Below, in pieces: positions 7,705 through 59,509 of a stretch of 64,000 nucleotides of DNA. The stretch is from contig OY848923.1 in assembly GCA_963693285.1 (NCBI GenBank), forward strand, positions 5,722,920 to 5,786,919, in the 5' to 3' direction. The first letter of the stretch is position 1. The number at the start of each line of letters is the position of its first letter. The notes beneath the pieces were generated by a model, which saw nothing but the letters and a program-made list of their open reading frames with translations, was not told the origin of the DNA and ran no database searches. The position numbers and the translations under genes were made by a program. The DNA comes from Xestospongia muta (Eukaryota; Porifera; Demospongiae; Haplosclerida; Petrosiidae).

Positions 7705-10700
7705 ATGGCTAATTTTTTTAGAAGGTTAAGAGCTAGAGATAGAACTACCGAAGTCCATTCAGGTAATGTTACTAGATGTCATGTACTATCTTAATTAGTA
7801 GTAGTACAATATCTACACTTGTAGATATTATGTAGTCTCACTAACTAGACCCTCTTTCTCTACAGTGAGTGTCTGACTAGTGAGACTAGTATAATGTATG
7901 GACTACATGTATCATAATATATAGTAGAAGATGAGGGTTAGGTATGTCACATAATGTGAAGTATGTGTCAACTATATAATTAGTATAGTCTTTGTACAGG
8001 TCTTATAGTAGATGTGATGACATACTGTAGGTATATTACCTTATACTGTAACCTGATCTCAAGATATGGTACATATCATTTTCTACAGGACAATATAAAC
8101 TTGATGGAAGAATCTTTCATCACACTCAAGTGATAGGAGATAACCTGTACCTGTGGGGTGGGGACTCAGATGACTTACCTGCTGTACATAATAGTGAGGA
8201 GAAGATGAGAGTAACTTCAAAAGTCCAAATATTTGATATTACTACTGGTAAATGGAACAATCAGTCTACCAGAGGTAATCCTCCACTAGGAGTGTTTAGT
8301 TATTTATGTACAACATTCAACAACAAAATTTTTTATTTCGGTGGGGATTGTGGACATGACTCATGTTACCATAACAGTCTCAATGAATTAAATATTTCTA
8401 CCCTCACCTGGACCCAACTACAATCTACTGATGACAGTATAACAGTGATGAAGAGAGGCTATGGTGGTATGATGTCAAGTGAACAAGCAGGACAGCATTG
8501 TCTTTTAATTATTGGAGGTAGTGGGTCTCCACCCTCTACAGAATTATCACAAGCTCAATATTATCAGTTATTTATTGGAGAAGTATCTACTAATGAACAA
8601 AATCTATATGACCTGACAACAGGTAATAATATTAATATATCATATTATACTATCAGATATCACTTATTACAGTCAATGTCACTACATGTAATTATTGTAT
8701 GTTATAATAGTGAACATCAGTAACTATAAACTAAGAGTATATGGACTATATTTTCTACCATTAAAGATTAGTCTTCATTCATTAAAATACAATATGTTTT
8801 ATGTATAATATTCAGTCATTGTTATCGACATTGACTAGATGTTTTTTGTTTGTTCTCCTTTTAGGTCAATGGATCATACCTGACATTATTGGACAGTGTA
8901 TGCCACCTAATAGTAACTTTGTTATGGAAGCAATAAATAATACAAGAGCAATCATCTTTGGTGGTAGAATTGAAGACACAGTATCAAATACACTGTATAT
9001 ACTGGATATTATCAACCATACAGTGGTGAGTTATATTATCATTCATACACTGACTGATAACATGTTATATAATGAGTGTTAGTTGAGTTCATTTGTCTAT
9101 CTAGCACTGGCAGACTATAACTAAACCTGACCTAGTAGTACAGTGGCCAGAGGAAAGGTGCTTTCATACTGCCAGTATTATCATTGGATCAATATCACCT
9201 ATACTGATAATGATAGGTGGAGTGGATGATGATAACAAAACAATAAAGGACTGTTGGATACTGGATATTAATGAGAAGTCATGGACAAAGGTACATAATA
9301 TAATATTAGTTTATAATATAGAATACATTTCATTCAGGTTGATAGTATTGTAGAGTAAAATGACAACCATAATGAAATAATGGTTCCATTGGTATAATGT
9401 TGACTTAATAATAAGATTGTAATTTTATTTTGATGGAGTTAAGTACATTTAACACAATAAAAATCTTTTGTAATTTCAAATGGAAATTATTAAATAGTTA
9501 ATGATTTAGGTGATAGTGGTCAGTTTAATGACAAACTATTGTTAAGAGTTTACTTGTAGTAGCTACAAATATATAGTGTTCATTGCTCAGGTCAGTGAAT
9601 TAAGTCAGGTCCAGTTAGTGAATTAAGGACTGGTTTTCTCTAATTGTGAACACCATAAATACTGTGACAACAAGTGTGACTGATCTAATTTGAAGGCTTG
9701 AAGTTTCTCACTAACTTGGATCTCTGCATAGCATTCTATACTATAGTCTTTCATAGATACTGCTACTAATTCTCTAATCTTTGTAACTCTAGTCAGTGTT
9801 TCACTGTGAAGTTACTATCTTACAAAACAGCTAGTGCTCTAGTTGTTGTATAATTTTTGTGGAGTTTCAAGATATATTAAACTCTGTGAACTATATATCT
9901 CTAGCTTATTCCTATTGAGTATAACACTGAGTTAAGTGCTCAACTCAAACTGATCAGAGTATAACGTTTATCATTAGTAACAAGGACAATTATTACTTCA
10001 CAACAAATTCCTATAACCCTTTAATTGTATTACTTAAGTATAATATAGTATAGTGTAGTATATTAGTAATAAAAATATTTAAATTGTATGTGTTTTGTGT
10101 CTACATGAAATATATAGAGTCAGATAGATTAATCTGTAATATGTAGAGACATTATTTATATGTGTATAGATAAATTATAGTACATTGAAGATATATTTCA
10201 TGTAGACACAAAACACATACAATTTAAATATTTTTATTACTAATATACTACACTATACTATAATATACTTAAGTAATACAATTAAAAGGTTATAGGAATT
10301 TGTGTACTATAATTTATCTATACACATATAAATAATGTCTCTACATATTACAGATTAATCTATCTGACTCTGTCACTGAGAGATTTATCCACTCTCTATC
10401 AACATTTATCATGGGACCACATTGTATGTGGTTAGTAGCTATAGGAGGTATAGTAAATGTTGGTGATAGTACACCTGTCAACGATCCCAATATAACAATG
10501 TTGGTAGAACTAGGTAAGTAAGTCATTACACACACAATAGCAGGCTGTAGCACCCAATCAGACAAGTTTGATAATGGCCTAACCACTTTTTGACATCTGA
10601 AGTGCAATTTGTAGTATTTGTATATCATTGATAATGTTGCTATTATGATTGATCTCTTTTCATTACATCACCTCATTGAAATTAGTTCATTAATATCACA

Positions 10701-12546
10701 GTTTCTTGATAATTTGCTGCCCTCTTTTGTCCACTGGTCATTAGACCACACCTCTAATGAATAATTAATATCCTTAAAATGTTTGTAGTACACAAAGCAT
10801 AGTATAATTGCCTTAATGCTCATTTTTTTTCTTCTTGCAATTTTGAATAACAAATGTCACATTTGATTTATGTATAAATCATGTGATAGTATTTCTATAT
10901 AGATATTTAAGAGTGTAATATAATACAATGACTTCATTTTTTATCTTTTAAATGTCTTAAATCACCATCTTTACATCATGTAACTATTATAAGTGACAAT
11001 TAAATAAAACTGATTGTTCAAACACATGTATCACAACATAACAATTTGATTTTTGAGTATGAATACATCATTTATCAAGTCTGTGCTAAATATTTGCCTG
11101 TCATTAACATGAAATCAATGATGTTCATCAAATTATATGATTTTCACAATAATTTAATTTATATATATATCTGTTGTTGCTATGGGAGACTTTATAGTTG
11201 ACATATCCCATGTAGCATATACTGACCACAATGTTTACTATATAGTTATAACAGGTGACCTTGTTATGTACTACATAGTATAGTCTTATTACTATCATAT
11301 ATGTTATACTAGTAGTACTACATTGTATACTAACATTAGTACTGTTGTGTTCTCTCATACAGTCCTCAATGATGGTCAGTGGACAGTAGGGTTTGTACTA
11401 GACTCTAATGAACTGACCTCAACTGATAACTACCAACAAAGAGTACTAAGACGACTCAGAGAAGGAAGAAGAGAATGTCGCATAGAACAAGGAAAGAAAC
11501 AAAGTATAAAACAAGAAGACAAAGAGCTTCATTCTATCATTCAGTCTCTTCAAGATGAACTAAAAGAGACTAGAGATCATTATCACCAACAAATACAGCA
11601 AACACAGCAAGCTCAAGATCAGTTACAGCAGTCTCAAGATGAGATACAAGAGACAAGACAAACTAGAGATCAATATCAACAAAGTAATCTTAGTCTTCTA
11701 CAACGACTTCAACAAACAGAACAAGCTCGACAATATATTGAACAACAGTTAGAACAGCTTTGTTCTCAACAGGATCAACCTCATTGGGTTGTAGGTAAAG
11801 AGGAGGTGATCATGACTCAGGAAGTCTTAGGTAATGGATCATATGGCAAAGTTAAAGTGGCTGTCTTTCGAGGTCTGAGAGTAGCTGCCAAGACTCTTCA
11901 TGGTATCATCATTTCTGACTATACCAGTGAGCTTTTCTCCAGGGAAATGGACATTGCTTCTAGAGTACGTCATCCTAATCTTGTCCAATTTATTGGAGCT
12001 ACTAGAGTAGGCACACCAATTATCCTTACAGAGATCATAGCCACAAGTCTTTACAAAGAACTCCAGAGGAAGGCCTTGACACAATCCCAAATACTTGGTA
12101 TCGGTTGTGATGTAGCTTTAGCTCTTAACTACCTCCATTTATGGAAACCAGATCCTATTATACACCGAGATATTAGTAGCCCAAATGTTTTGTTAGAGCC
12201 ATCAGTAGGTGATAGCTTTAAAGCTAAAGTAACTGATTATGGAGCAGCTAACCTTCAACAACAAGCAAAGACAGATATGCCAGGAAACCCAGCCTATGCT
12301 TCCCCAGAGTCTCGCTACCCAGATGATCACAGTCCAGCAATGGATGTCTACAGCTACTCTGTCCTATTGATGGAGATGATTATTCATCGTCCACCTGCTA
12401 TGACAGTTCGTAAGAGAGAAGAACAAGCTAGTCATGTATCATGGCCTCCTATGTCCTCTCTCATCCAGAGGTGTCTCAACCGAGATCATCGTTGTCGTCC
12501 AACTATGAGCCAGATCTTAGATCAACTCAAACAACTAAAGATATAA
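7705..12546 (+). CDS. K1: kelch propeller, coiled coil, TKL-like kinase (760 aa)
   Basis: Exons 7705-7762, 8089-8622, 8865-9025, 9105-9290, 10354-10513 and 11363-12546 join in frame (2283 nt) with GT-AG junctions. Residues about 20-366 form six kelch blades, each with an (I/F)GG doublet. About 395-505 is a glutamine-rich coiled coil, and about 515-760 a kinase with GNGSYGKV glycine loop, RVAAK lysine, [13 protein letters not shown] helix C and [11 protein letters not shown] catalytic loop. The DFG motif reads DYG and APE reads SPE. No signal peptide or membrane segment is seen, so a cytosolic sensor kinase is likely. The catalytic loop lacks the usual LK after HRD, so Ser/Thr versus Tyr specificity is unclear; overall it looks tyrosine-kinase-like. 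Start chosen at the ATG in ACCCATGG, conserved in K1, K2, K3 and K5. Confidence 0.85.
10006..10376. repeat. Large inverted duplication in K1 intron 4 reaching into exon 5
   Basis: The order is A, B, reverse-A, reverse-B. A (about 10006-10118, TTCCTATAACC onward) is inverted at about 10188-10300. B (about 10115-10183, AGAGTCAGATAG onward) is inverted at about 10308-10376, which contains the exon 5 acceptor and its first 20-odd bases. In K5 the corresponding stretch is just A followed by reverse-B. K1 therefore carries an extra inverted copy of the whole segment. The arms of more than 100 bp are nearly perfect, so the intron RNA could form long hairpins over the exon 5 splice site. Confidence 0.8.
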
Positions 12547-12991
12547 TAAACTAGAATTGAACTAACTTTGTGTGATACAGTTTGTAGTTTATAGGACTTG
12601 TATACTTTACCTCTTTTTATAAGTTATGATGTGTACAATATACTATTAATAGTGTGTAGTTGTTTAAGTGATTATCAATATATGATATCTGTTACATTCC
12701 ACTTATTTTTTATTTTACAGACTTTGTTACTAGTGTTGATTTTACTGGATATAGTTTTGCAATTAATTAACTTTAATAATTGTTAATGACTATTGTAATG
12801 AATGTTATTAACATTTATCTGGGCATGTGCTCCAACTGTGCAGGTTTGGTTCTCTGACTGACTTCTAAAGCTACTCAAGGTACTAGTAGTAAGAGTTAGT
12901 GCTATATTGTCCTGTACTTTAGATGAGTTAATGTCAAACTGTCTATTGTTATCAACAGATTGTCGTGTGTTACTGATATAAATCAAGTAAA
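12547..12991 (+). promoter_or_regulatory. K1-V1 intergenic spacer (3' region of K1 and Vasa upstream region)
   Basis: This 445-bp spacer is conserved in all five units and ends at the Vasa exon 1 start. In V2-V5 it contains CACGTG, a perfect E-box, about 160 bp before the Vasa ATG. In this unit the site reads CATGTG (12824-12829). Small open frames here are not preserved in the other copies and are treated as non-coding. Confidence 0.4.
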
Positions 12992-17518: not shown

Positions 17519-20500
17519 ATGGCTAATTTCTTTAGAAGGTTAAGAGCTAGAGGTAGAACTACTGAAATCCCATCAGGTAATGTTACTAGATATCATGACT
17601 AGTGAGACTAGTATAATGTATGGACTACATGTATCATAATATATAGTAAAAGATGAGGGTTAGGTTTGTGAAGTATATGTCAAGTATATAATTAGTATAG
17701 CCTTTTAAGTCTTATAGTAGATGTGATGACATACTGTAGGTATATTACCTTATATTGTAACCTGATCTCAAGATATGGTACATATCATTCTCTACAGGAC
17801 AATACAAACTTGATGTAAGAGAATATCATCATACTCAGGTGATTAGTGATGCTCTGTACTTGTGGGTTGGGGACTCAGATGACTTACCTGCTGTACATAA
17901 TAGTGAGGAGAAGAGGAAAGTAACTTCAAAAGTCCACATATTTGATATTACTACTGGTAAATGGAACAATCAGTCTACCAGAGGTAATCCTCCACTAGGA
18001 GTGGAGGGTTGTTTATGTACCACAGTCAACAACAAAATTTATTATTTCGGTGGGTATTGTGTACATGATCAATGCTACCATAACAGTCTCAATGAATTAA
18101 ATATTTCTACCCTCACCTGGACCCAACTACAATCTACTGATGACAGTATAACAGTGATGAAGAGAGGCTATGGTGGTATTATGTCAAGTGAACAAGCAGG
18201 ACATCTTTGTCTTTTAATTATTGGAGGTGGTGGATCTCCACCCTCTATACAATTACCACAAGCTCAATATTATCAGTATCATGATGATAGAGCATGTACT
18301 AATGAACAAAATCTATATGATCTTACAACAGGTAATAACATTAATATATCATATTATACTATCAGATATCACTTATTACAGTTAGTGTCACTACATGTAA
18401 TTATTGTATGTTATAATAGTGAACATCAGTAACTATAAACTAGGAGTATGTGGACTATATTACCTACCATTAGTATGTGTGTTGTGGTTTACAATTATGG
18501 ATCTCTTCACTCATTAAAGTACAATATATTTTATGTATAATATTCAATCATTGTTATCTATATTGAGTAGATGTGTTTTATTTGTTCTCCTTTTAGGTCA
18601 ATGGATCATACCTGAGATTATTGGACAGTGTATGCCACCTAATACTGGCTTTGTTATGGAAGCAGTAAACAATACAAGAGCAATCATCTTTGGTGGTTTA
18701 GTTGGAGTCACAGTATCTAATACACTCTATATACTGGATATCAACAACCATACAGTGGTAAGTTATATTATTATTCACACACTGACTGGTAACATGTTAT
18801 ATAATGAGTGTTAGTTGAGTTAATTTGTCTATCTAGCACTGGCAGACTATAGCTAAACCTGACCTAGTAGTACAGTGGCCAGAGGAAAGGATGGGTCATG
18901 CGGCCAGTATTATCACTGGATCAATATCACCTATATTAGTAATGATAGGTGGACTGGATGATGATAGCAAAACAATAAAGGACTGTTGGATACTGGATAT
19001 TAATGAGAAGTCATGGACAAAGGTACATAATATAATATTAGTTTATAATATAGAATACATTTCATTCAGATTGATAGTTTTATAGAGTAAAATTACAAGC
19101 CATAATGAAATAATAGTTCTATTGGTATAATGTTGATTTTATGATAAGATTATGATTTTATTTTCTTGGAGTTAAGTACATTCAAAACAATGAAAACCTT
19201 TTGTAATTTCAAATGGAAATTATTAAATAGTTAATGATTTAAGTGTAGTGGTTAGTTTAATGACAAACTATTGTTATGAGTTTACTTGTAGTAGCTACAA
19301 ATATATACAGTTCATTGCTCAGGTCAAGTCCAGTTAGTGAATTAAGGACTGGCTTTCCCTAATTCTGAATACCATAAATACTATGACAATAAGTGTGACT
19401 GATCTAATTTGAAGGCTTGGAGTTTCTCACTAACTTGGATCTCTGCATAGCATTCTATACTATAGTCTTTCATAGATACTGCTACTAATTCTCTAATCTT
19501 TGTAACTCTAGTCAGTGTTTCACTGTGAAGTTACTATCTTACGAACAGCTAGTGCTCTAGTTGTTGTATAACTTTTGTGGAGTTTCAAGATATTTTAAAC
19601 TCTGTAATCTATATATGTCTAGCTTATTCCTATTGAGTTATCTTTACCTAACTATGAGCTCTAGTCAGTCTTCAGGTCCAGTCTAGTTAGCGAATTAAGG
19701 ACTTTTCCTATTTTGAATGCTATGATGATGAGTGTGACTGATCTAATTTGAATCCTTGAAGTTTCTTACTAACTTAGATATCTGAATAGTATTCTATAGT
19801 CTTCCTTAGATAATGCTACTTCTTTAATCATTGTAGCTCTAGTCAGTGTTTCACTGTGAAGTTAGTATATATCTGTGAACTATATATCTCTAGCTTATTC
19901 CTATTGAGTTATAACACTGAGTTAAGTGCTCAACTCAAACTGAATAGAGTATAATGTTTATAATTAAAAAGAATAACTACTACTTCATAACAATTCCTAT
20001 AAGTGTGTTTTGTACCTACACGAAATATATCTTCAATGTACTATAATTTATCTATACACATATAAATGATGTCTCTACATACTACAGATTAATCTACCTG
20101 ACTCTGTCACTGAGAGATATGGCCACTCTCTATCAACATTTATAATGGGACCACATTGTGTGTGGTTAATAGTTATAGGAGGTGGAGTAAATCCTGTTGA
20201 TAACACATTTGTCACAGACCCCAATATAACAATGTTGGTAGAACTAGGTAAGTAAGTCATTACACACACAATAGCAGGCTGTAGCACCCAATCAGACAAG
20301 TTTGATAATGGCCTAACCACTTTTTGACATCTGAGATGCAATTTTTAGTATTTTTATATCATGGATAACGTTGCTATTATGATTGATTTCTTTTTTTATA
20401 TCACCTCATTGAAATTAGTTCATTAATATCACAGTTTCTTGATAATTTGCTGCCCTCTTTGTCCACTGGTCATTAGACCACACCTCTATTGGATAATTAA

Positions 20501-22292
20501 TATCCTTAAAATTTTTGTAGTACACAAAGCATAGTATAATTGCCTTAATTTCTAATTTTTTCTTCTTGCAATTTTGAATAACAAATGCCACATTTGATTT
20601 ATGTATAGATCATGTCATAGTATTTCTATATAGATATTTAAGAGCATACCATAACATAATGACTTCATTTTTATCTTTTAAATGTCTTAAATCATCATCT
20701 TTACATCATGTAACTATTATAAGTGACAATTAAGTAAAAATTGATGTACTAACCATTCAAACACATGTATCACGGCATAACAATTTGATTTTTGAGTATG
20801 AATACATTGTCATGTATCAATACTGTGTTAAATCTTTGCTTTCATTAACATGTAATCAATTATGTTCATCAAATTATATGATTTTCACAATAATTTAATT
20901 TATATATATATATCTGTTGTTGCTATGGGAGACTTTCTAGTTGACATATCACATGTAGCATATACTAACCACAATGTTTTACTATATAGTTATATAACTG
21001 GTGACCTTGTTATGTACTACATAGTATAGTCTTATTACTATCATATATGTTATACTAGTAGTACTACATTGTATACTGACATTAGTACTGTTGTGTTCTC
21101 TCATATAGTCCTCAATGATGGTCAGTGGACAGTAGGGTTTGTACTAGACTCTAATAACATCACCTCAACTGATGACTACCAACAAAGAGTATTAAAACGA
21201 CTCAGAGAAGGAAGAAGGGAATGTCGCATAGAACAAGGAAAGAAACAAAGTATGAAACAAGAAGACAAAGAGCTTCAATCTATCATTCAGTCTCTTCAAG
21301 ATGAGCTAAAGGAGACAAGAGATCGTTATCACCAACAAATACAGCAAACACAACAAGCTCAAGATCAGTTACAGCAGTCTCAAGATGAGATACAAGAGAC
21401 AAGACAAGCTAGAGATCAATATCAACAAAGTAATCTTAGTCTTCTACAACAACTTCAACAAACAGAACAAGCTCGACAAGATATTGAACAACAGTTAGAA
21501 CAGCTTCGTTCTCAACAGGATCAACCTCATTGGGTTGTGGGTAGAGAAGATGTCATCATGACACAGGAGGTCTTAGGTAATGGATCATATGGCAAAGTTA
21601 AAGTAGCTGTCTTTCGAGGTCTGAGAGTAGCTGCTAAAACTCTTCATGGTATCATCATTTCTGACTATACCAGTGAGCTTTTCTCCAGGGAAATGGACAT
21701 TGCTTCTAGAGTACGTCATCCTAATCTTGTCCAATTTATTGGAGCTACAAGAGTAGGCACACCCATTATCCTTACAGAGATCATGGCCACAAATCTTTAC
21801 AAAGAACTCCAGAAGAAGGCATTGACACAATCCCAAATACTTGGTATCAGTTGTGATGTAGCTTCAGCTCTTAACTACCTCCATTTATGGAAACCAGATC
21901 CTATTATCCATCGAGATGTTAGTAGCCCAAACGTTTTATTAGAACCATTAGTAGGTGATAGCTTTAAAGCTAAAGTAGCTGATTATGGAGCAGCTAACCT
22001 TCAACAACAAGCTAAGACAGATATGCCAGGAAACCCAGCCTATGCTTCCCCCGAATCTCGCTACCCAGATGATCACAATCCAGCAATGGATGTCTACAGC
22101 TACTCTGTACTCTTAATGGAGATGATTCTTCATCGTCCACCTGCTATGACAGTTCCAAAGAGAGAAGAACAAGCTAGTCATATATCATGGTCTTCTATGT
22201 CCTCTCTCATTCAGAGGTGTCTCAACCGAGATTGTCATCATCGTCCAACTATGAGCCAGATCTTAGATCAACTCAAACAACTAAAGATATAA
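17519..22292 (+). CDS. K2: kelch propeller, coiled coil, TKL-like kinase (760 aa)
   Basis: Exons 17519-17576, 17798-18331, 18597-18757, 18837-19022, 20088-20247 and 21109-22292, the same lengths and phases as K1. It is open throughout. It differs from K1 mainly in the kelch part: for example EY for IF before the first conserved His, EG for FS in blade 2, TG for SN in blade 4, MG for CF in blade 5 and YG for FI in blade 6. The first blade reads WVGD where the others have WGG. The kinase keeps GNGSYGKV, the VAAK lysine, HRDVSSPN and DYG and is otherwise nearly identical to K1. The coiled coil is the same length as K1. Confidence 0.85.
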
Positions 22293-24513: not shown

Positions 24514-24802
24514 CCTATTGGTTTATTCAGTTGGCCTCAGTCACTGTGTATTGTCCAGTTATATCTAAAACTATATGATATCAGACTGTATAGTAATTAT
24601 AGGACCTGGCCATCTCTCAGAATTTGTACTAAAGTCTGATGTTTGTTAGCGTCCCTTACTCTGTTATGTACTTATTATATCTTGTGAGTTAACTACCAGC
24701 TGCTGTATTAATAATATTATCACAAAACAGTGTGTATTGATTATGTTCTCTAATATCAATGGGTTGATATAGTCATGGCTTCTTTGAGTTTTATCATGCT
24801 CA

Positions 24803-25045
<243 letters not shown>

Positions 25046-25531
25046 GCTGATTTTCTTGAGGACTATCTCTTTCTTACTGTTGGACGAGTGTGTGGAGCTA
25101 CAAGTGACATACAACAACGTATAATTGAAGTAGGAGAGTATGAAAAGAGAGAGAAACTTGGAGAAATACTTAAATTAATGGGTCAGTACTTCATATACTA
25201 TATTTTATAAAATTATTCCATCTCTGAACAGATGTTCCTTATTGTATTATAACACTATATACTAGGACTATCTTGATTTTCCTACTAAAGAGCTTTTTTT
25301 ATGTTTGATAAAGTGACATAAATGTCAGTTTATTAGTTAGGGGGTGTGGCTTAACAGAGTAATTGCTATCTTTGTAATACACACGTTTGTATGTATTTTC
25401 ATATTATAACTTGTTTTCCTTTCTTATCCATTATATCTATAGGTACTGATCGTATATTGGTGTTTGTAGAGACAAAGAGAAATGCTGACTTTCTAGCATC
25501 TTATTTATCTCAAGGTTCCCTGCTTATTAGA

Positions 25532-27060: not shown

Positions 27061-27126
27061 CTGCTAACCAAAGAAGGGTAAAGACACGACGGCAAAGTGT
27101 AGGCAATGCCAGACTAGACACAACCC

Positions 27127-30100
27127 ATGGCTAATTTCTTTAGAAGGTTAAGAGGTGAAGGTAGAACTACTGAAGTCCCATCAGGTAATGTTACTAGATA
27201 TCATGACTAGTGAGACTAGTATAATGTATGGACTACATGTATCATAATATATAGTAGAAGATGAGGGTTAGGTTTGTGAAGTATATGTCAAGTATATAAT
27301 TAGTATAGTCTTTGTACAAGTCTTGTAGTAGATGTGATGACATACTGTAGGTATATTACCTTATACTGTAACCTGATCTCAAGATATGGTACATATCATT
27401 CTCTACAGGACAATATAAACTTGATGGAAGAGTTGACCATACCACTCAAGTGATAGGAGATTCTCTATACTTGTGGGGTGGGGACTCAGATGACTTACCT
27501 GCTGTACATAATAGTGAGGAGAAGATGAGAGTAACTTCAAAAGTCCAAATATTTGATATTACTACTGGTAAATGGAACAATCAGTCTACCAGAGGTAATC
27601 CTCCACTAGGAGTGGTGGGTTGTTTATGTACAACAGTCAACGACAAAATTTATTATTTCGGTGGGGATTGTGGTCATGACTCATGTTACCATAACAGTCT
27701 CAATGAATTAAATATTTCTACCCTCACCTGGACTGAACTACAATCTACTGATGACAGTATAATAGTGATGAAGAGAGGCTATGGTGGTATGATGTCAAGT
27801 GAACAAGCAGGACATCATTGTCTTTTAATTATTGGAGGTGGTGGATTCCACCCTCTATACAATCACCACAAGCTCAATATTATCAGTATTCTGATGATAT
27901 AGTATCTACTAATGAACATAATATCTATGACCTTACAACAGGTAATAACATTAATATATCATATTATACTATCAGATATCACTTATTACAGTCAATGTCA
28001 CTACATGTAATTATTATATGTTATAATAGTGAACATCAGTAACTATAAACTAGGACTATATGGACTATATTTCCCATCATTAAAGATTAGTATGCCTGTT
28101 GTAGTTTATGATTATAGATCTCTTCATTCATTAAAGCACAATACATTTTATGTATAATATTCAGTCATTGTTATCTATATTGAGTAGATGTGTTTCATTT
28201 GTTCTCTTTTTAGGTCAATGGATCATACCTGAGATTATTGGACAGTGTATGCCACCTAATGGTGGCTTTGTTATGGAAACAGTAAACAATACAAGAGCAA
28301 TCATCTTTGGTGGTGCAGTTGAAAAAACAATATCTAATACACTCTATATACTGGATATCATCAACCATACAGTGGTAAGTTATATTATCATTAATACACT
28401 GACTGATAACATGTTATATAATGAGTGTTAGTTGAGTTCATTTGTCTATCTAGCACTGGCAGACTATAGCTAAACCTGACCCAGTAGTACAGTGGCCAGA
28501 GGAACGGATAGATCATCCTGCGAGTATTATCACTGGATCAATATCACCTATACTAGTAATGATAGGTGGAGATAACACATACAACACAACAAAGGACTGT
28601 TGGATACTGGATGTTAATGAGAAGTCATGGACAAAGGTACATAATATAATATTAGTTTATAATATAGAATACATTTCATTCAGGTTGATAGTATTTTAGA
28701 GTAAAATGACAAACATAATGAAATAATAGTTCTATTGGTATAATGTTGATTTAATGATAAGATTATAATTTTATTTTCATGGAGTTAAGTACATTCAAAA
28801 CAATGAAAACCTTTTGTAATTTCAAATGGAAATTATTAAGTAGTTAATGATTTAAGTGATAGAGGTCAGTTCAATGACAAACTCTTGTTATGAGTTTACT
28901 TGTAGTAGCTACACATATATAGTGTTCATTGCTCAGGTCAAGTCCAGTTAGCGAATTAAGGACTGGCTTTTCCTAATTTTGAATGTTATGATGATGAGTG
29001 TGACTGATCTAATTTGGGTGCTTGAAGTTTCTCACTAACTTAGATATCTGAATAGTATTCTATAGTCTTCCTTAGATAATGCTACTTCTTTAATCGTTGT
29101 AGCTGTAGTCTGTGTTTCACTGTGAAGTTAGTATATATCTGTGAACTATATATCTCTAGCTTATTCCTATTGAGTTATAACACTGAGTTAAGTGCTCAAC
29201 TTAAACTGATCAGAATATAATGTTTATAATTAAAAAGAATAATTACTACTTCGTAACAATTCCTATAAGTGTGTTTTGTACCTACACGAAATATATCTTC
29301 AATGTACTATAATTTATCTATACACATATAAATAATGTCTCTATATACTACAGATTAATCTACCTGACTCTGTCACTGAGAGATATGACCACTCTCTATC
29401 AACATTTATAATGGGACCACATTGTGTGTGGTTAATAGTTATAGGAGGTAGAGTAAATCTTGATGATAACACATTTGTCACAGACCCCAATATAACAATG
29501 TTGGTAGAACTAGGTAAGTAAGTCATTACACACACAATAGCAGACTGTAGCACCCAATCAGACAAGTTTGATAATGGCCTAACCACTTTTTGACATCTGA
29601 GGTACAATTTGTAGTATTTTTATATCATGGATAACGTTGCTTTTATGATTGATCTCTTTTCATTACATCACCTCATTGAAATTAGTTCATTAATATCACT
29701 GTTTCTTGATAATCTGCTGCCCTCTTTGTCCACTGGTCATTAGACCACACCTCTAATGAATAATTAATACCTTGAATTTTGTAGTACACAAAGCATAGTA
29801 TAATTACCTTTATGCTCATTTTTTTCTTCTTGCAATTTTGAATAACAAATGTCACATTTAATTTATGTATAGATCATGTGATAGTATTTCTATATTTAAG
29901 AATATAACATAATGACTTCATTTTTTATCTTTTAAATGTCTTAAATCACCATCTTACATCATGTAACTATCATGAGTGAAAGTTAAGTAAAACCTGATGT
30001 ACTGACCATTCAAACACATGTATCACGGCATAACGATTTAATTTTTTAAGTATAAATACATTATCATAATCAATACTGTGTTAAATCTTTGCTTTCATTA

Positions 30101-31532
30101 ACATGTAATCAATTATGTTCATCAAATTATGATTTTCACAATAATTTAATTTATATATATATATCGGTTGTTGCTATGGGAGACTTTATAGTTGACATAT
30201 CACATGTAACATATACTGACCACAATGTTTTACTATATAGTTATAACAGATGACCTTGTTATGTACTACATAGTATAGTCTTATTACTATCATATATGTT
30301 ATACTAGTAGTAATACATTGTATACTAACATTAGTATTGTTGTGTTCTCTCATATAGTCCTTAATAATGGTCAATGGACAGTAGGGTTTGTACTAGACTC
30401 TAATGACCTGACCTCAACTGATGACTACCAACAAAGAGTATTAAAACGACTCAAAGAAGGAAGAAGAGAATGGCGCATAGAACAAGGAAAGAAACAAAAT
30501 GTAAAAGAAGAAGACAAGGAGCTTCAATCTATCATTCAGTCTCTTCAAGATGAGCTAAAAGAGACAAGAGATCGTTATCACCAACAACTACAGCAAACTC
30601 AACAGCAGCTGCAGGATTCTCAACATGAGATACAAGAGACAAGACAAGCTAGAGATCAATATCAACAAAGTAATCTTAGTATTCTACAGCGACTTCAACA
30701 AACAGAACAAGCTCGACAAGATATTGAACAACAGTTAGAACAGCTTCGTTCTCAACAAGATCAACCTCATTGGGTTGTCGGTAGAGAGGAGGTGATCATG
30801 ACACAGGAGGTCTTAGGTAATGGGTCATATGGCAAAGTTAAAGTGGCTGTCTTTCGAGGTCTTAGAGTAGCTGCCAAGACTCTTCATGGTATCATCATCT
30901 CAGAGTATACCAGTGAGCTTTTCTCCAGGGAAATGGACATTGCTTCTAGAGTACGTCATCCTAATCTTGTCCAATTTATTGGGGCTACTAGAGTGGGTAC
31001 ACCAATTATCCTCACAGAGATCATGGCCACAAGTCTTTACAAAGAACTCCAGAAGAAGACCTTGACACAATCCCAAATACTTGGTATCAGTTGTGATGTA
31101 GCTTCAGCTCTTAACTACCTCCATTTATGGAAACCAGATCCTATTATCCACAGAGATATTAGTAGCCCTAATGTCCTATTAGAACCATCAGTAGGTGATA
31201 GCTTTAAAGCTAAAGTAGCTGATTATGGAGCAGCTAACCTTCAACAACAAGCTAAGACAGATATGCCAGGAAACCCAGCCTATGCTTCCCCAGAGTCTCG
31301 CTACCCAGATGATCATAGTCCAGCAATGGATGTCTACAGCTACTCTGTCCTATTGATGGAGATGATTCTTCATCGTCCACCTGCTATGACAGTTCCTAAG
31401 AGAGAAGAACAAGCTAGTCATGTATCATGGCCTCCTATGTCCTCTCTTATCCAGAGGTGTCTCAACCGAGATCGTCATCATCGTCCAACTATGAGCCAGA
31501 TCTTAGATGAACTCAAACAACTAAAGATATAA
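27127..31532 (+). pseudogene. K3: kelch-kinase copy with two frameshifts in the kelch exons
   Basis: Exons correspond to 27127-27184, 27409-27941, 28214-28374, 28454-28638, 29354-29513 and 30358-31532. Exon 2 is 533 nt instead of 534: GGTGGATTCCACC (about 27839-27851) lacks one C present in K2 (GGATCTCC). Exon 4 has two extra bases (AATGAGAGAAG near 28616, where the others read AATGAGAAG). Both shift the frame and do not compensate. The kinase exon is fully open, with all motifs of K1 and a slightly shorter coiled coil. Either K3 is a recent pseudogene or the two changes are assembly errors. Its variable kelch residues are VD, VG, GG, ID and YD in blades 1, 2, 4, 5 and 6. Confidence 0.8.
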
Positions 31533-31987: not shown

Positions 31988-34234
<2,247 letters not shown>

Positions 34235-35463: not shown

Positions 35464-38400
35464 ATGGCTGAGTTCATTAGATGGTTAATAGGTGGAGATA
35501 GAACTGCTGCAGTCCCATCAGGTAATGATTTCGTTAGAAGGTTAAGAGGTAATGTTACTAGATGTCATGTACTACCTTAATTAGTAGTAGTACAATATCT
35601 ACACATGTAGGTATTATGTAGTCTCACTAACTAGACCCTCTTTCTCTACAGTGAGTGTCTGACTAGTGAGACTAGTATAATGTATGGACTACATGTATCA
35701 TAATATATAGTAGAAGATGAGGGTTAGGTTTGTGAAGTATATGTCAAGTATATAATTAGTATAGCCTTTGTACAAGTCTTGTAGTAGATGTGATACATAC
35801 TGTAGGTATATTACCTTATACTGTAACCTGATCTCAAGATATGATACATATCATTCTTTATAGGACAATACAAACTTGATGTAACAGCATTTCATCACAC
35901 TCAAGTGATTGGTGATTCTCTATACTTGTGGGGTGGGACCTCTTATGACTTACCTCATGTACATAATAGTGTGGAGAAGAGGAAAGTAACTTCAAAAGTC
36001 CAAATATTTGATATTACTACTGGTAAATGGAACAATCATTCTACTAGAGGTACTCCTCCTCTAGGAGTAGATGGCTATTTATGTACAACAGTTGATAACA
36101 AAATTTATTATTTCGGTGGATATTGTGGACATGACAGATGCTTCCATAACAGTCTCCATGAGTTAAATATTTCTACCCTCACCTGGACACAACTACAACC
36201 TACTGATGATAGGATAGCGGTGATGAGGAAATCTAGTGGTGGTATGATATCGAGTAAGGAAGCAGGACGACATTGTCTTCTGCTTATTGGAGGTTTTGGA
36301 TCCTCACACTCTACACAATTACCACAAGCTCAATATTATTGGGCACCCAATGGTGTAATATCTACTAATGAACAAAATATCTATGACCTTACAACAGGTA
36401 ATAACATTAATATATCATATTATACTATCAGATATCACTTATTACAGTCACTACATGTAATTGTTATGCCATTTCATGCAGTAAAGTACAATGCATTGTG
36501 TCACAATTTTTATAAAATAGTTCACTGTTAACAGCTATTGACTACATGTGTTTTGTTTTATGACGATGAGTGTTTTGTTTGCTCTCTTTTTAGGTCAATG
36601 GACTATACCTGAAATTACTGGACAGTGTATGCCACCTAATAATAATTTTGTTATGGAAGCAGTAAACAATACAAGAGCAATCATCTTTGGTGGTGATGTT
36701 GAAGGCACAGTATCTAATACACTCTATATACTAGATATAATCAGCCATACAGTGGTAAGTTATATTATTATTCATACACTGACTGATAACATGTTATATA
36801 ATGAGTGTTAGTTGAGTTCATTTGTCTATCTAGCACTGGCAGACTATAGCTAAACCTGACCTAGTAGTGCAGTGGCCAAAGGAAAGACAAGGCCATGCTG
36901 CCAGTATTATCACTGGATCAATATCACCTATATTAGTAATGATAGGTGGAATCGATAAGACAAACAAAACAATAAAGGACTGTTGGGTACTAGATATTAA
37001 TGAGAAATCATGGGCAAAGGTGTGTTGTGTACTATTATTATATTCAGTATGATATAGTGTACATCTTGTTTAGATGGTTTTCAGAGTAATAGTTTGAGAA
37101 TTAAAAACAACATTTAAGAGTAAATATGTAAAACACAATATAAAGAAATAATGGTTCTATTGGTATAATGTTGATTTAATGATAAGATTATAGTTTTATT
37201 TTTATGGAGTTAAGTACATTTAACACAATACAAACTTTTTGTAATTTCAAATGGAAATTATTAAGTAGTTAATAATTTAGATGATAGTGGTCACATATAA
37301 ATGATGTCTCTACATACTACAGGTTAATCTACCTGACTCTGTTACTGAGAGATGTGCCCACTCTCTATCAACATTTATCATGGGACCACATTGTGTGTGG
37401 TTAGTAGTTATAGGAGGTGCAGTAAATATTGGACATAGTATACCTGTCAAAGACCCCACTATAACAATGTTGGTAGAACTAGGTAAGTAAGTCATTACAC
37501 ACACATAACAGGCTATAGCACCAACTCAGACAAGTCAGATAATAGCCTAGCCACATTTTTGAATAATTAATTACTCCTGAAATTTTTGTAGTGCACAAAC
37601 CATGGTATAATTATCTTATTGCTCATTTTTTTCTTCCTAGAATTTTAAATAACAAATGTCACATTTAATTTATGTATAGGTCATGTGATAGTATTTCCAT
37701 ATAGATATTTAAGAGCGTAACATAATACAATGACTTCATTTAACTTTCTTAAATCACCATCTTTACATCATGTAACTATTACAAGTGACAATTAAGTAAA
37801 ACTTGATGTACTGACCATTCAAACACATGTATCACAACATAACAATTTGATTTTTGAGTATGAATACATTATCATGTATCAATACTGTGTTAAATCTTTG
37901 CTTACATTAACATGTAATCAATCATGTTAAACAAATTATATGATTTTCACCATGATTTCATTTGTATATATCTGTTGTTGCTATGGGAGACTTTATAGTT
38001 AACATATCACATGTAACATATACTGACCACAATATTTACTATATAGTTATATAACTGGTGACCTTGTTATGTACTACATAGTATAGTCTTATTAGTATCA
38101 TATATGTTATACTAGTAGTACTACATTGTATACTAACATTAGTACTGTTGTGTTCGCTCATATAGTCCTCAATGATGGTCAGTGGACAGTAGGGTTTGTA
38201 CTAGACTCTAATGACCTGACCTCAACTGATGACTACCAACAAAGAGTATTAAAACGACTCAGAGGAAGAAGAGAATGTTGCATAGAACAAGGAAAGAAAC
38301 AAAATGTAAAAGAAGAAGACAAGGAGCTTCAATCTATCATTCAGTCTCTTCAAGATGAGCTAAAGGAGACAAGAGATCGTTATCACCAACAACTACAGCA

Positions 38401-39358
38401 AACTCAACAGCAGCTGCAGGATTCTCAACATCAGTTACGACAGTCTCAAGATGAGATACAAGAGACAAGACAAGCTAGAGATCAATATCAACAAAGTAAT
38501 CTTAGTCTTCTACAGAAACTTCAACAAACAGAACAAGCTCGACAAGATATTGAGCAACAGTTAGAACAGCTTCATTCTCAACAGGATCAACCTCATTGGG
38601 TTGTGGGTAGAGAGGAGGTGATCATGACACAGGAGGTCTTAGGTAATGGATCATATGGCAAAGTTAAAGTAGCTGTCTTTCGAGGTCTTAGAGTAGCTGC
38701 CAAGACTCTTCATGGTATCATCATCTCAGAGTATACCAGTGAGCTTTTCTCCAGGGAAATGGACATTGCTTCTAGAGTACGTCATCCTAATCTTGTCCAA
38801 TTTATTGGGGCTACTAGAGTGGGTACACCAATTATCCTCACAGAGATAATGGCCACAAGTCTTTACAAAGAACTCCAGAAGAAGACCTTGACACAATCCC
38901 AAATACTTGATATCAGTTGTGATGTAGCTTCAGCTCTTAACTACCTCCATTTATGGAAACCAGATCCTATTATCCACAGAGATATTAGTAGCCCTAATGT
39001 TCTGTTAGAACCATTAGTAGGTGATAGCTTTAAAGCTAAAGTAACTGATTATGGAGCAGCTAACCTTCAACAACAAGCTAAGACAGATATGCCAGGAAAC
39101 CCAGCCTATGCTTCCCCAGAGTCTCGCTACCCAGATGATCATAGTCCAGCAATGGATGTCTACAGCTACTCTGTACTCTTAATGGAGATGATTCTTCACC
39201 GTCCACCTGCTATGACAGTTCTAAAGAGAGAAGAACAAGCTAGTCATGTAGCATGGCCTCCTATGTCCTCTCTTATCCAGAGGTGTCTCAACCGAGATCA
39301 TCATCGTCGTCCAACTATGAGCCAGATCTTAGATGAACTCAAACAATTAAAGATATAA
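35464..39358 (+). CDS. K4: kelch propeller, coiled coil, TKL-like kinase (763 aa)
   Basis: Exons 35464-35521, 35864-36397, 36594-36754, 36834-37019, 37323-37482 and 38166-39358 are open (2292 nt). It is the most divergent copy. The N-terminus is MAEFIRWLIGGDRTAAV, not [10 protein letters not shown]. The kelch blades carry AF, DG, SS, NN, QG and CA at the variable pairs, and blade 1 reads WGGTSYDLPHVHN. Intron 4 is only 303 bp against 1063 bp in K1. The coiled coil has an extra glutamine-rich stretch, and the kinase is intact with DYG. Just after exon 1, part of exon 1 (TTCGTTAGAAGGTTAAGAGG) is repeated within the intron. Confidence 0.85.

Positions 39359-41848: not shown

Positions 41849-41849
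<1 letters not shown>

Positions 41850-41911
<62 letters not shown>
41850..41911 (+). repeat. (CT)n microsatellite before V4 exon 8
   Basis: About 62 bp of CT repeat, the shortest of the deletion-junction tracts, leading into CTGTAG and exon 8. Confidence 0.9.
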
Positions 41912-41914
<3 letters not shown>

Positions 41915-42405
41915 GCTGATTTTCTTGAGGACTATCTCTTTCGTACTGTTGGACGAGTTGGTGGAGCTGCAAGTGACATACAACAACGTATAATTGAAGT
42001 ACGAGAGTATGAAATGAGAGTAAAACTTGGAGAAATACTTAAATTAATGGGTCAGTACTTCATAATACTATATTTTATAAAATTATTCCATCTCTGAACA
42101 GATGTTCCTTATTGTATTATAACACTATATACTAGGATTATCTTGATTTTCCTACTAAAGAGCTTTTTCTTTATGTTTGATAAAGTGACATAAATGTCAG
42201 GTTTATTAGTTAGGGGGTGTGGCTTAACAGAGTAATTGCTATCTTTGTAATACATGTTTGTATGTATTTTCATATTATGACTTGTTTTCCTTTCTTATCC
42301 ATCATATCTATAGGTACTGATCGTACATTGGTGTTTGTAGAGACAAAGAGAAATGCTGACTTTCTAGCATCTTATTTATCTCAAGAAGGTTTCCCTACTT
42401 ATTAG

Positions 42406-43939: not shown

Positions 43940-43948
43940 CTCTCTCTG

Positions 43949-46900
43949 GACTGCTCCTAGCCGGAGGAACAAGCCACTTAATATTCACAATGGGCGTGGT
44001 CTTCTATTAATTATTATTATTTGACATTTTCAATGAATAATAAACAAGTAATGAAAATTAATGCACATAATACCGTGCTCAGTTTGGATTACTGAGAGCT
44101 GTGTGTGATGGACTCAAGTCTCCCCTCAGGATTTAACAAATCTAGGAAATACTTGCTTTGCAAATGCAACTCTTCAGGCAATCCTTCATATTCCTCTTCT
44201 ACAAGAATATATAAATAAACATAAAGAATGCAGTAAGAATTGTTATTATCAATTATTATCAATAATTATAAATGTACTCTTAGCTACATTATGCTGTATA
44301 TGCTTGATAAAAAGATTGAAGAATCTCTGCATGCCAACAGAGATCTACAATCACCTGAACAGTAATGGACAAAACTAATATGAAACAAATTACATATTTT
44401 ATAGAATTCATTCCACACTGGTCTCCAGGTGATCAGGAAGATGCCCATGAGTTTGTTACTCAAGTTCTTCTTCAAATTGAAGAGAGGTAGTTATAGTCAA
44501 TATTAGTGCTTTTGATATATTAATTTAATCATAAGTGACACCGGTGTGCACAAATTAACTGAAACTACAATAACTACTACTAGTAAGAACATATACATAC
44601 ATAAAATGTATATTTAACATAATACAGTTGAATGTCTAAAATGTGGATTGTCCAGATCTTCTGAAAACAACCAATCAAATCTACAAGTAGCTGTACAGGT
44701 ATGACATAAACAGTACTATTAATATGTTGATAATACAGTGGACATATCATCCAGGGAGCTAACATAGAAAAAGCAATCAAAAATTCATTCCAAAAAGTGA
44801 TGTTATCTGAAAAAGAGGGGGTAATATGTCCGAGGTGATGAATGCATTTTCAATTAGTCCAATATAATTAGTTCCATTACCAACAATAGATGTGACAAAC
44901 AAACTCAAACAAGAGTAAAACAAGATCTGCATTCGCTGCCATCAATTTTGATACTTCAATTACAAAGGTATACTCTTGTCATTGTTTGACAATAAATATA
45001 TGAAGAACAAATTACATATATAGATTCTTTTGGAAGAATGGCCAAGCACAAAAATATACATCACTAGTACCATTTTCTGAAGAATTACATCTTTGTGATG
45101 CACCTTTGCTTAAAGCAAAATTACAAGTTATCATAACATGTACAATTTAGGGAGCTACAGTTATGTTTAACCTGGTGGCAATGATAGAGCACATTGGACC
45201 ATCCTGTACACAAGGTCATTATGTTTCCTACATATTAAACAACAAAAGGTGGTACAAAATGGATAACTCCTTGGTAAGCTATACAAGCGATGATAATAAA
45301 ATATAATTACTTCAAGGTATACCACATGGATCTTGATGAGATCTTACAAAAGCAGGCTTATATACTGATATATCAAAAGAAAAGTGTTAAGGTAACCTGA
45401 ATAGATGGTGAAACCACCTTCCAACCCAAGCACTTAAATGCCACATAATTTCAACCACATTAACCTAGTTTACACATATTATACACCTTATTAGTTCTTG
45501 TGATTTTTAGAGTTCACTAAGACTGTCTCCTGAAATTATTAATGTTCAAAAACAGCTATTTGACAAACTTCTAGAAGAATTATCAACCAGAGATGAAACA
45601 CTTATCAAAGAGAGAAGCAAGCTTGCCACATTACTACGTACACAACAGCTAAAGCAAGAAAATAAAAGCAAACAAGGGCTCTGTCATCAATCAGTACATG
45701 TATGTGGCACATTAACAAAACTACCAACAATGGATGGTATACAAATGTCAGTTACAATGCATTAAATAAATAATCTTGTCCTATATAGATCTCAAACAAT
45801 ACTATGATGAAATGCAATCAAATGACACAATGTGTACAGTCAATTGGGAATGTATTAGTCAGCCATTTCACATAACAGTATCAATCACTGGTAAACAGTT
45901 ACAGTGTCTGAAACAAGTTCATGAAGAAACACATGATTCATCTTCCTGCCTCAATGATAAGGTGTGAATACTCACAGTCAGATCAAAATCACATGTAAAT
46001 ATGATTAGGTCATTAATAGTTATGTCATACTTATTACAAATGAAGTGCAGCAGATGAAGGTAAACATGTGCTCACAGGAACAAATTGGTATATGTTATTG
46101 TAGGGTTGTCATGTTTTGCCTCTGACATCATATTTCTTTCAACTAATTTCACAACATACAGTGATGATTGTTGATGAATATGGTGAGGGCTATCCAGTTT
46201 CATGGTGCCTAAGTAACAGAGAGGATCAGATACTACTGACACATTACTTTGAACACCTTAAGAAAAAGACTGGAACAATATCACCAAAATGGTTTATGTC
46301 TGATGACTTTGATGGGTTCTATAATGCATGGATATCAGTATTCAATAGACATCCACAAAAAATCCTACGTTCATGGCATGTAGATCGTGCCTGGAGAAGT
46401 GCCTTGAAATTTATCAATGACAAAGAGCAGAAGTGTCAAATCTACCACACTCTCCACACACTACTTGATGAAGAAGATGACAACAAGTTTTCAACAAGTT
46501 TATGACACTTATTGACAATAACCAGAGTACACAACGTTTCGCTAAGTACTTCAAGCAAGAGTACAGTCAACGTAACCATCAGTGGGCTACATGTTACCGA
46601 AAAACAGCTGGTATCAACACCAATGTGTATGTTGAAGCATTCCACCACACACTAAAGTATTTGTACATGAAAGGTAAAATCAATCGACGTGTTGATAAAT
46701 GTATTCATATGCTCATGAAGATAGCAAAAGACAAAGCTTTTGAAAGACTAATAAAATTAGAGAAGGGGAAGACATCTTATCGAATAGGTATTATTAAGAG
46801 CAGACGTGTACATAGTATAAAGCTTTCAATAGAAGCTGTAAGAGACACTAACTGTAATGAATGGACAGTTACTTCTACATCAAAACCTGAAACCCACTAT

Positions 46901-48425: not shown

Positions 48426-48497
48426 CTCTCTCTGCTAACCCAAGAAGGGTAAAGACACGACGGTAAAGTGTAGGCAATGCCAGACTAGACACAACCC

Positions 48498-51400
48498 ATG
48501 GCTAATTTCTTTAGAAGGTTAAGAGGTGGAGGTAGAACTACTGAAGTCCCATCAGGTAATGTTACTAGATGTCATGACTAGTGAGACTAGTATAATGTAT
48601 GGACTACATGTATCATAATATATAGTAGAAGATGAGGGTTAGGTTTGTGAAGTATATGTCAAGTATATAATTAGTATAGTCTTTCTACAAGTCTTATAGT
48701 AGATGTGATGACATACTGTAGGTATATTACCTTATACTGTAACCTGATCTCAAGATATGGTACATATCATTCTCTATAGGACAATACAAACTTGATGGAA
48801 GAACCTTTCATCACACTCAAGTGATAGGAGATAACCTGTACCTGTGGGGTGGGGACTCAGATGACTTACCTGGTGTACATAATAGTGAGGAGAAGATGAG
48901 AGTAACTTCAAAAGTCCAAATATTTGATATTACTACTGGTAAATGGAACAATCAGTCTACCAGAGGTAATCCTCCACTAGGAGTGGAGGGTTATTTATGT
49001 ACAACAGTCAACAACAAAATTTATTATTTCGGTGGGGATTGTGGACATGACTCATGTTACCATAACAGTCTCAATGAATTAAATATTTCTACCCTCACCT
49101 GGACCCAACTACAATCTACTGATGACAGTATAACAGTGATGAAGAGAGGCTATGGTGGTATGATGTCAAGTGAACAAGCAGGACATCATTTTCTTTTATT
49201 TGTTGGAGGTCAAGGGTCTCCACCCTCTACACAATTACCACAAGCTCAATATTATCAGTATTCTGATGGTGAAGTATCTACTAATGAACAAAATATCTAT
49301 GACCTTACAACAGGTAATAACATTAATATATTGTATTATACTATCAGATATCACTTATTACAGTCAATGTCATTACATGTAATTATTGTATGTTATAATA
49401 GTGAACATCAGTAACTATAAACTAAGAGTATATGGACTATATTTTCTACCATTAAAGATTAGTCTTCATTCATTAAAATACAATATGTTTTATGTATAAT
49501 ATTCAGTCATTGTTATCGACATTGACTAGATGTTTTTTGTTTGTTCTCCTTTTAGGTCAATGGATTATACCTGAGATTATTGGACAATGTATGCCACCTA
49601 ATGTTGGCTTTGTTATGGAAGCAGTAAACAATACAAGAGCAATCATCTTTGGTGGTGAAGTTGAAAACACATCATCTAATACACTCTATATACTGGATAT
49701 CATCAACCATACAGTGGTAAGTTATATTATCATTCATACACTGACTGATAACATATAATATAATGAGTGTTAATTGACTTCTTTTGTCTATCTAGCACTG
49801 GCAGACTATAGCTAAACCTGACCTAGTAGTACAGTGGCCAGAGGAAAGGTATGGTCACGCTGCCAGTATTATTACTGGATCAATATCACCTATACTAGTA
49901 ATGATAGGTGGAGTGGATGATGATAACAAAACAATAAAGGACTGTTGGATACTGGATATTAATGAGAAGTCATGGACAAAGGTACATAATATAATATAAA
50001 ACACATTTTGTTCAGGTTGATAGTATTTTAGAGTAAAATGACAACCATAATGAAATAATGGTTCTATTGGTATAATGTTGATTTAATGATAAGATTATAA
50101 TTTTATTTTGATGGAGTTAAGTACATTTAACACAATAAAATTGTTTTGTAATTTCAAATGAAAATTATTAAATAGTTAATGATTTAAGTGATAGTAGTCA
50201 GTTTAATGACAAACTCTTGTTATGAGTTTACTAGTAGTAGCTACAAATATATAGTGTTCACTGCTCAGATCAAGTCCAGTTAGTGAATTAAGGACTGGCT
50301 TTCCCTAATTGTGAACACCATAAATACTATGACAATCAGTATGACTGATCTAATTTGAAGGCTTGAAGTTTCTCACTAACTTGGATCTCTGCATAGCATT
50401 CTATACTATAGTCTTCCATAGATACTGCTACTAATTCTCTAATATTTGTAGCTCTAGTCAGTGTTTCACTGTGAAGTTACTATCTTACAAAACAGCTAGT
50501 GCTCTAGTTGTTGTATAATTTTTGTGGAGTTTCAAGATATATTAAACTCCATGAACTATATATATTACTAGCTTATTCCTATTGAGTTATAACACTGAGT
50601 TAAGTGCTCAACTCAAACTGATCAGAGTATAATGTTTATAATTATTAACACTCAAGAATCACTACTTCACAACAAATTCCTATAACCTTTTAATTGTACT
50701 ACGTAAGTATATTATAATATAATGTAGTATATTAGTAATAAAAATATTTAAAGTGCATGTGTTTTGTACCTACATTAAATACATCTTCAATGTACTATAA
50801 TTTTTCTATACACATGTAAATGATGTCTCTATATACTACAGATTAATCTACCTGACTCTGTAACTGAGAGATATGTCCACTCTCTATCAACATTTATCAT
50901 GGGACCACATTGTGTGTGGTTAGTAGTTGTAGGAGGTGGAGTAGATGTTGATGATGATAGTACATTTGTCAAAGATCCCAATATAACAATGTTGGTAGAA
51001 CTAGGTAAGTAAGTCATTACACACACAATAGCAGGCTGTAGTACCCAATCAGACACGTTTAATAATGGTAAACCACTTTTGACATCTGAGGTGCAATTTG
51101 TAGTATTTTTATATTATGGATAATGTTGCTATTATGATTGATCTCTTTTCATTACATCACCTCATTGAAATTAGTTCATTAATATCACAGTTTCTTGATA
51201 ATTTGCTGCCCTCTTTTGTCCACTGGTCATTAGACCACACCTCTAATGAATAATTAATATCCTTAAAATTTTTCTAGTACACAAAGCATAGTATAATTGC
51301 CTTAATGCTCATTTTTTTCTTCTTGCAATTTTGAATAACAAATGTCACATTTAATTTATGTATAAATCATGTGATAGTATTTCTATATTTAAGAGCATAC

Positions 51401-53539: not shown

Positions 53540-59509
<5,970 letters not shown>

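Follow-up and report, generated by a model that had tools for sequence, protein, structure and literature searches.

The kelch-kinase genes of the window

The window analysed here is a stretch of 64,000 nucleotides of the demosponge Xestospongia muta (GenBank assembly GCA_963693285.1, contig OY848923.1, in the following C7, positions 5722920-5786919), from a searched genome of 158 Mb in 28 contigs. It contains five tandem genes, K1 to K5, all on the forward strand, which combine a six-bladed kelch propeller of the KLHDC type with a kinase of the TKL group. Loop residues on one face of this propeller differ between the gene copies beyond neutrality, and they do so repeatedly in separate gene clusters.

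The predicted gene models (Table 1) rest on homology between the copies and on splice-like borders, and Pfam recognizes kelch and kinase domains on the spliced K1 protein. A short exon 1 is followed by exon 2, which codes for blades 1-3, by exons 3, 4 and 5, which add a single blade apiece, and by a last exon coding for a glutamine-rich coiled coil and the kinase. For exon 1 of K4 there is no clear candidate, only a weak match of seven residues at 35527-35547. The main kelch exon of K3 (exon 2), the first part of which is 89% identical to K1, is frameshifted after IIGGGG near position 27848 and matches in two frames, indicating either a pseudogene or an assembly error. No signal peptide is apparent at the start of K1. 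Its most hydrophobic 19 residues (mean 1.96) lie in the propeller strands of blade 5, which makes a membrane helix unlikely.

An initial annotation of the window had listed residue pairs that vary among K1-K5 in front of a conserved residue of each blade, and the residue that follows the GG doublet. Our exon map reproduces these lists, with the pairs IF, EY, VD, AF, TF in blade 1, FS, EG, VG, DG, EG in blade 2, SN, TG, GG, NN, VG in blade 4, CF, MG, ID, QG, YG in blade 5 and FI, YG, YD, CA, YV in blade 6, and with R, L, A, D, E (blade 4) and I, G, R, A, G (blade 6) after GG. Both kinds of site, the variable pair and the residue directly behind GG, are called class positions in the following.

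Selection on the propeller loops

Further copies of the kelch exon are abundant. Searching the genome with the exon 2 protein gave 150 scored matches (the best 150 of 194 candidates), which occupy arrays on C7, C6, C1 and C2 as well as dispersed sites. A second search, with a query taken from the C2 array, returned, as judged by eye, largely the same places (best 150 of 186 candidates) and four seen only with this query; the figure of about 150 copies, taken from two largely overlapping searches, is a lower bound. Exon 2 was read at 80 of the 150 places, 77 of which are without a stop in the matched stretch, two carry a stop and one (K3) is frameshifted. Among the 80 exons, 12 variable sites occur in 78 different combinations, and 13-16 different residues occur at each of the alignment columns 33, 71, 152 and 174.

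Site-wise selection was scanned in 79 exon 2 sequences, after exclusion of L118 (incomplete at its start), masking of the stops in L094 and L111 and truncation of K3 (L033) at its frameshift. They form the sets A (the cluster of the window, 12 sequences), B+C (15), D (12), E+F (21) and G (19). The scan, a self-written FUBAR-like code, uses an MG94 codon model with a grid of synonymous and nonsynonymous rates on IQ-TREE trees. Sites with P(dN>dS)>0.9 number 5 in A, 17 in B+C, 6 in D, 15 in E+F and 13 in G, compared with 0-3 in null simulations without any site above neutrality (three per set). Selection at column 33 recurs in all five sets, that at columns 9 and 152 in four, and that at columns 6, 71 and 174 in three. 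In total, six columns are selected in at least three sets; 20,000 permutations gave 0.34 such columns on average and never more than 4.

The positions singled out by the initial annotation are enriched among the selected sites beyond chance, including in clusters that had not been seen before. In the four other clusters, the four listed exon 2 columns (the pairs of blades 1 and 2) were selected in 7 of 16 cases against 37 of 676 for the remaining columns (p=1.9e-5); the corresponding values in cluster A alone are 1/4 and 3/170 (p=0.09). Five extra columns added by the same rule (the pair of blade 3 and, in blades 1-3, the residue that follows GG), chosen after the alignments had been seen, reach 7/20 in the four other clusters (p=0.0001), and all nine columns 14/36 (p=1.8e-8). 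Separate scans of blades 4 and 5 (in A and B) and of blade 6 (in A) again display selection at the pair and first-after-GG positions, plus other loop sites. Over all six blades of cluster A, 7 of 18 class positions exceed P=0.9 against 8 of 328 others (p=1.5e-6), and over the scanned blades of B 5 of 15 against 19 of 276. Some class positions do not take part: the second residue of the blade 2 pair, the first residue of the blade 3 pair and the first residue after the blade 2 GG are selected in no cluster, and loop sites outside the earlier list, such as column 33, are selected as well.

It might be argued that the surface loops of redundant copies simply drift under relaxed constraint, with no selection for change. 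Such drift would agree with a mean dN/dS below 1 over the whole propeller and with the existence of broken copies (the K3 frameshift and a stop in 2 of the 80 exon 2 rows). However, leave-one-out choice of columns, each time on the basis of the other clusters, gives a tree-free ratio of nonsynonymous to synonymous differences (pN/pS) above 1 in every set (3.0, 1.8, 2.8, 4.7 and 2.2, against 0.40-0.77 at the remaining columns). The turns of the opposite face are hardly affected (2/137 selected, against 60/515), and the few sites returned by the null simulations likewise speak against drift. We regard relaxed constraint as an improbable explanation.

Several selected residues align with the pocket of KLHDC2 that accommodates the ends of peptides. 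Residues of this pocket include Y50, K147, Y163, R189 and W191, and their letters agree with the KLHDC2 chain in the alignment. PMC11470957 gives R236, R241 and S269 as carboxylate-binding, and PMC12035522 adds W270. R236, R241 and S269 are not conserved in the sponge family: K1 has R, V and C, and the positions vary among copies. Positive selection is concentrated on this putative binding surface, as expected of a recognition repertoire.

Table 1. Kelch-kinase genes of the window and variable positions of the K1 propeller (P, probability of dN>dS; numbers of clusters refer to the five exon 2 sets)
Feature	Position in window	Strand	Remarks
K1 gene	7705..12546	+	exon 1 7705-7761; exon 2 (blades 1-3) 8091-8624; exon 3 8867-9025; exon 4 9105-9290; exon 5 10354-10512
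K1 exon 6 (coiled coil and TKL kinase)	from about 11362	+	kinase 11782-12543
K1 blade 1 variable pair IF (columns 8-9)	8112..8117	+	P>0.9: column 9 in 4/5 clusters, column 8 in 1/5
K1 blade 2 variable pair FS (columns 71-72)	8295..8300	+	P>0.9: column 71 in 3/5 clusters, column 72 in none
K1 first residue after blade 3 GG (column 152)	8520..8522	+	aligned with KLHDC2 Y163; P>0.9 in 4/5 clusters, 0.86 in the fifth
K1 blade 4 variable pair SN	8912..8917	+	P 0.97, 0.58 in A; 0.88, 0.99 in B
K1 first residue after blade 4 GG	8966..8968	+	aligned with KLHDC2 R236; P 0.99 in A, 1.00 in B
K1 blade 5 variable pair CF	9159..9164	+	aligned with KLHDC2 S269, W270; P 0.94, 0.66 in A; 0.47, 0.91 in B
K1 blade 6 variable pair FI	10384..10389	+	P 0.82, 0.91 in A
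K1 first residue after blade 6 GG	10450..10452	+	P 0.97 in A
K2 gene	17519..22292	+	exon 1 17519-17575; exon 2 17800-18333; exon 3 18599-18757; exon 4 18837-19022; exon 5 20088-20246; exon 6 from about 21108, kinase 21528-22289
K3 gene	27127..31532	+	exon 1 27127-27183; exon 2 from 27411; exon 3 28216-28374; exon 4 28454-28636; exon 5 29354-29512; kinase 30768-31529
K4 gene	35866..39358	+	exon 2 35866-36399; exon 3 36596-36754; exon 4 36834-37019; exon 5 37323-37481; kinase 38594-39355
K5 gene	48498..53083	+	exon 1 48498-48554; exon 2 48782-49315; exon 3 49558-49716; exon 4 49796-49981; exon 5 50842-51003; exon 6 from about 51860, kinase 52319-53080

Other features of the window include transposase remains, namely a hAT dimerisation region (7063-7428, reverse strand, E 2.1e-8), a DUF4371 match (14135-14506, forward, E 2e-6) and a weak MULE match (46104-46502, forward, E 0.0062), the latter two below their cut-offs. 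The start of a DEAD-box helicase (PF00270) lies at 55216-55638 on the forward strand. Two forward open frames behind CT repeats (24788-25210 and 32515-32919) share a short stretch and have no Pfam match; on visual inspection they could be remnants of a helicase that the tandem unit carries along. Long CT/TC microsatellites occupy 24799-25042, 32548-32661, 54089-54335 and 56715-56849, of which the first three are found at most 3 kb downstream of the kinase exons of K2, K3 and K5 and are possible sites of unequal exchange. At the window end, about 10 kb past the K5 kinase, a forward open frame (62764-63192) contains a Death domain (PF00531, E 1.2e-5, above the cut-off).

Constancy of the kinase and exchange of outputs

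The near-constancy of the kinase noted initially is evident from the kinase domains of K2-K5, which are 92.5-94.5% identical to that of K1. The domain matches PF00069 and PF07714. Among PDB sequences CTR1 and TAK1 match best, TNNI3K and MLK are also among the nearest, and IRAK4 ranks lower. Of the 30 kinase loci L039-L068, patterns of our own recover the HRD Asp in 30, the DYG Asp in 29 and the catalytic Lys in 27. Pairs of K1-K5 have a kinase dN/dS of 0.06-0.23. Their mean kinase dS (0.167) equals the mean kelch dS (0.157), so constraint, and not recent gene conversion, accounts for the constancy of the kinase, although exchange is still visible in single pairs. In particular, the dS values of the two halves are mismatched in K3-K4 (kinase 0.075, kelch 0.239) and K1-K5 (kinase 0.149, kelch 0.073), as expected if the halves were sometimes exchanged. 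The scan flagged three kinase sites in cluster A and four in a set of 32, including His/Arg/Cys changes near the C-terminus, which could be due to CpG mutation.

In a public protein search, 8 of 19 kinase-type proteins match loci of this genome at 94-99.8%, which suggests that there is a second assembly, haplotype or individual for comparison. Kinase proteins of other public contigs pair with single loci (P0004 with L050 at 96.3%, P0013 with L054 at 99.5%, P0019 with L063 at 94.4% and P0018 with L064 at 94.8%) and perhaps represent a second haplotype or individual.

The initial annotation had assumed one output behind the varying propellers, and this does not hold for the family. We labelled each kelch match with the output domain that follows it on its strand at up to 10 kb, provided that no other kelch match comes first. 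A kinase follows 79 of the 150 matches, Death and/or ZU5 domains follow 22, and neither follows 49; the 22 matches correspond to 21 exons, as one broken exon (C6:2.4497 Mb) was counted twice. The Death matches are the best 150 of 1488 candidates, and therefore some of the 49 label-free exons may have a missed output; those of ZU5 are the best 150 of 182. Both types are mixed within the array at C6:2.25-2.45 Mb, where a kinase follows three matches, Death with or without ZU5 follows 14 (13 exons) and neither follows three.

Related copies have Death and ZU5 domains after the same sensor exon. On the exon 2 tree of 60 rows (20 kinase, 17 Death/ZU5, 23 unlabelled) several output swaps are needed, namely 8 changes of which 4 are forced by well-supported branches. 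For example, a group with support 94 unites the kinase-type copy L073 with the Death-type copies L079 and L036, their branch lengths being 0.009-0.016. We infer that kelch and output exons are joined here in one message.

Such exchange could itself create an artefact, if gene conversion or exon shuffling between tandem copies had scattered old variants. Both the mismatched dS of kelch and kinase and the output swaps on the kelch tree would be compatible with this. Exchange alone, however, neither raises pN over pS nor confines variants to one face and to the same columns across clusters, and the diversity of residues at columns 33, 71, 152 and 174 is likewise difficult to reconcile with it. 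We consider this artefact very improbable.

A ZU5 domain suspected by eye in protein P0020 was rejected, with no Pfam match up to E 5. Open frames with a COR domain (PF16095) form large arrays of their own, mainly on C1, C3, C5, C6, C10, C12 and C15 (best 150 of 261 candidates), and represent another expanded signalling family; among these 150 matches none was noticed beside the kelch arrays by eye, a comparison that was not computed.

A putative repertoire of kelch propellers

Large intracellular receptor families with selected recognition surfaces are known as NLRs from animals and plants, and the sponge kelch family resembles them in its size and in its selected surface. It differs in that the kelch propeller replaces the leucine-rich repeats, and neither NACHT nor NB-ARC is among the matches with E<=0.001 of spliced K1, P0009, P0020 and P0021. 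The NACHT-WD40 genes of the HET-D/HET-E type in Podospora, which act in fungal incompatibility, encode beta-propellers in which selection falls on one and the same position of every repeat. This recurrent position is the likeness to the sponge propeller, which is kelch and not WD40. The kelch domain of LZTR1 binds Ras-type small GTPases according to database entry titles, and we know of no kinase or Death output for it. The initial annotation had compared the propellers with Keap1, whose ligand pocket is lined by residues such as Y334, R380, Y525, Y572, R415, R483 and S508. Keap1 is ruled out as the closest template: it and other BTB-kelch proteins are less similar than the KLHDC group, and spliced K1 has no BTB domain among its matches with E<=0.001. 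KLHDC2, KLHDC3 and KLHDC10 are C-terminal degron receptors, from which the sponge family differs by its about 150 copies, its varying pocket and its kinase or Death/ZU5 output; KLHDC2 is a ubiquitin-ligase receptor with fixed specificity, as stated in PMC12035522. Death-bearing NLRs occur in a sponge, as reported in PMC12909245.

The nearest named relative is the kelch-kinase LOC100636886 (P0009) of Amphimedon queenslandica, which has the same architecture and 41% identity over 97% of K1. In Amphimedon P0021 a kelch region is joined to COR-A and Death matches, both slightly below the Pfam cut-off, and one source names this protein Death domain-containing. P0009, P0021 and P0022 are named merely as uncharacterised or by domain. 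A limited literature search found no paper on the sponge kelch-kinase family, which does not establish novelty in print. The word "kelch" is absent from the available portions of PMC4772301 and of the main text of PMC12909245; in PMC6208332 one "Kelch motif containing gene" is down-regulated in each of two sponges after exposure to microbial patterns.

We interpret the family as a probable diversified ligand-recognition repertoire, in which the sensor cassette, diversified in its ligand pocket, is combined with exchangeable outputs of innate-immune type. The repertoire proposed initially is supported in part, in that the selected loops lie on one face and overlap the KLHDC2 pocket, not in its single output.

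Several observations weigh against this interpretation. All results come from the sequence of one genome, the scan is our own code applied to 12-21 sequences per cluster with three null simulations each, recombination among tandem copies inflates tree-based tests, and the loop and strand borders were set after the scan. Over the whole propeller, dN/dS between pairs of K1-K5 stays below 1 (0.51-0.96), the 12 columns selected in at least two sets are inside the permutation range (mean 6.0, maximum 14), and the nine class columns alone give a pN/pS of just 1.09 in A and 1.11 in B, compared with 2.91 in D, 1.59 in E+F and 1.80 in G. Between the Amphimedon paralogues P0021 and P0022, 4 of 17 class positions have changed, compared with 24 of 317 others (p=0.044), a signal in the same direction but weak. 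Kelch and output in one protein are seen solely in Amphimedon gene models. The output labels, finally, group together on the kelch tree more strongly than in almost every shuffle (8 changes against a mean of 12.4-12.6, with 3 and 1 of 500 as low), which indicates that outputs are partly inherited with the sensor.

A role in defence in particular is argued from analogy and is less probable than the repertoire as such. Sponges show allorecognition, and the diversification might alternatively serve self/non-self recognition between sponges, the sensing of food bacteria or the sorting of own proteins. For the last of these KLHDC2 provides a model, since it sorts self proteins by their C-terminus (PMC12035522). 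The apparent lack of a signal peptide in K1 speaks against a role at the cell surface, and Death and ZU5 domains near related kelch exons point, from established domain knowledge, to cell-death or immune signalling. We regard a purpose other than defence as rather unlikely.

If the family is a recognition repertoire, each copy would be a cytosolic receptor whose propeller pocket binds a ligand of its own, the likeliest candidate being a short peptide or the end of a protein. From what is known of the domains, ligand binding would cluster the coiled coils by oligomerisation, followed by trans-activation of the TKL kinase; the other class would use Death-domain assembly with ZU5 instead. By analogy with other selected repertoires, the recognition of microbes or other non-self may have been the driver. 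It is conceivable, as a tentative extension, that early animals evolved another large cytosolic repertoire beside the NLRs, in which hypervariable KLHDC-type propellers read peptide ends of foreign or altered proteins and cassettes were re-paired with TKL kinase or Death-ZU5 by exchange within tandem arrays.

If the repertoire reading is right, this sponge would possess a family of cytosolic sensors as large as that of NLR-type genes (about 150 kelch exons, compared with at least 98 NACHT matches from 102 of 155 candidates scored), built on a fold that we do not know as an immune repertoire. The known geometry of the KLHDC2 pocket means that ligands could be sought directly by peptide display. 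Near-identical sensors with either a kinase or a Death/ZU5 output would constitute a natural experiment in the coupling of recognition to signalling.

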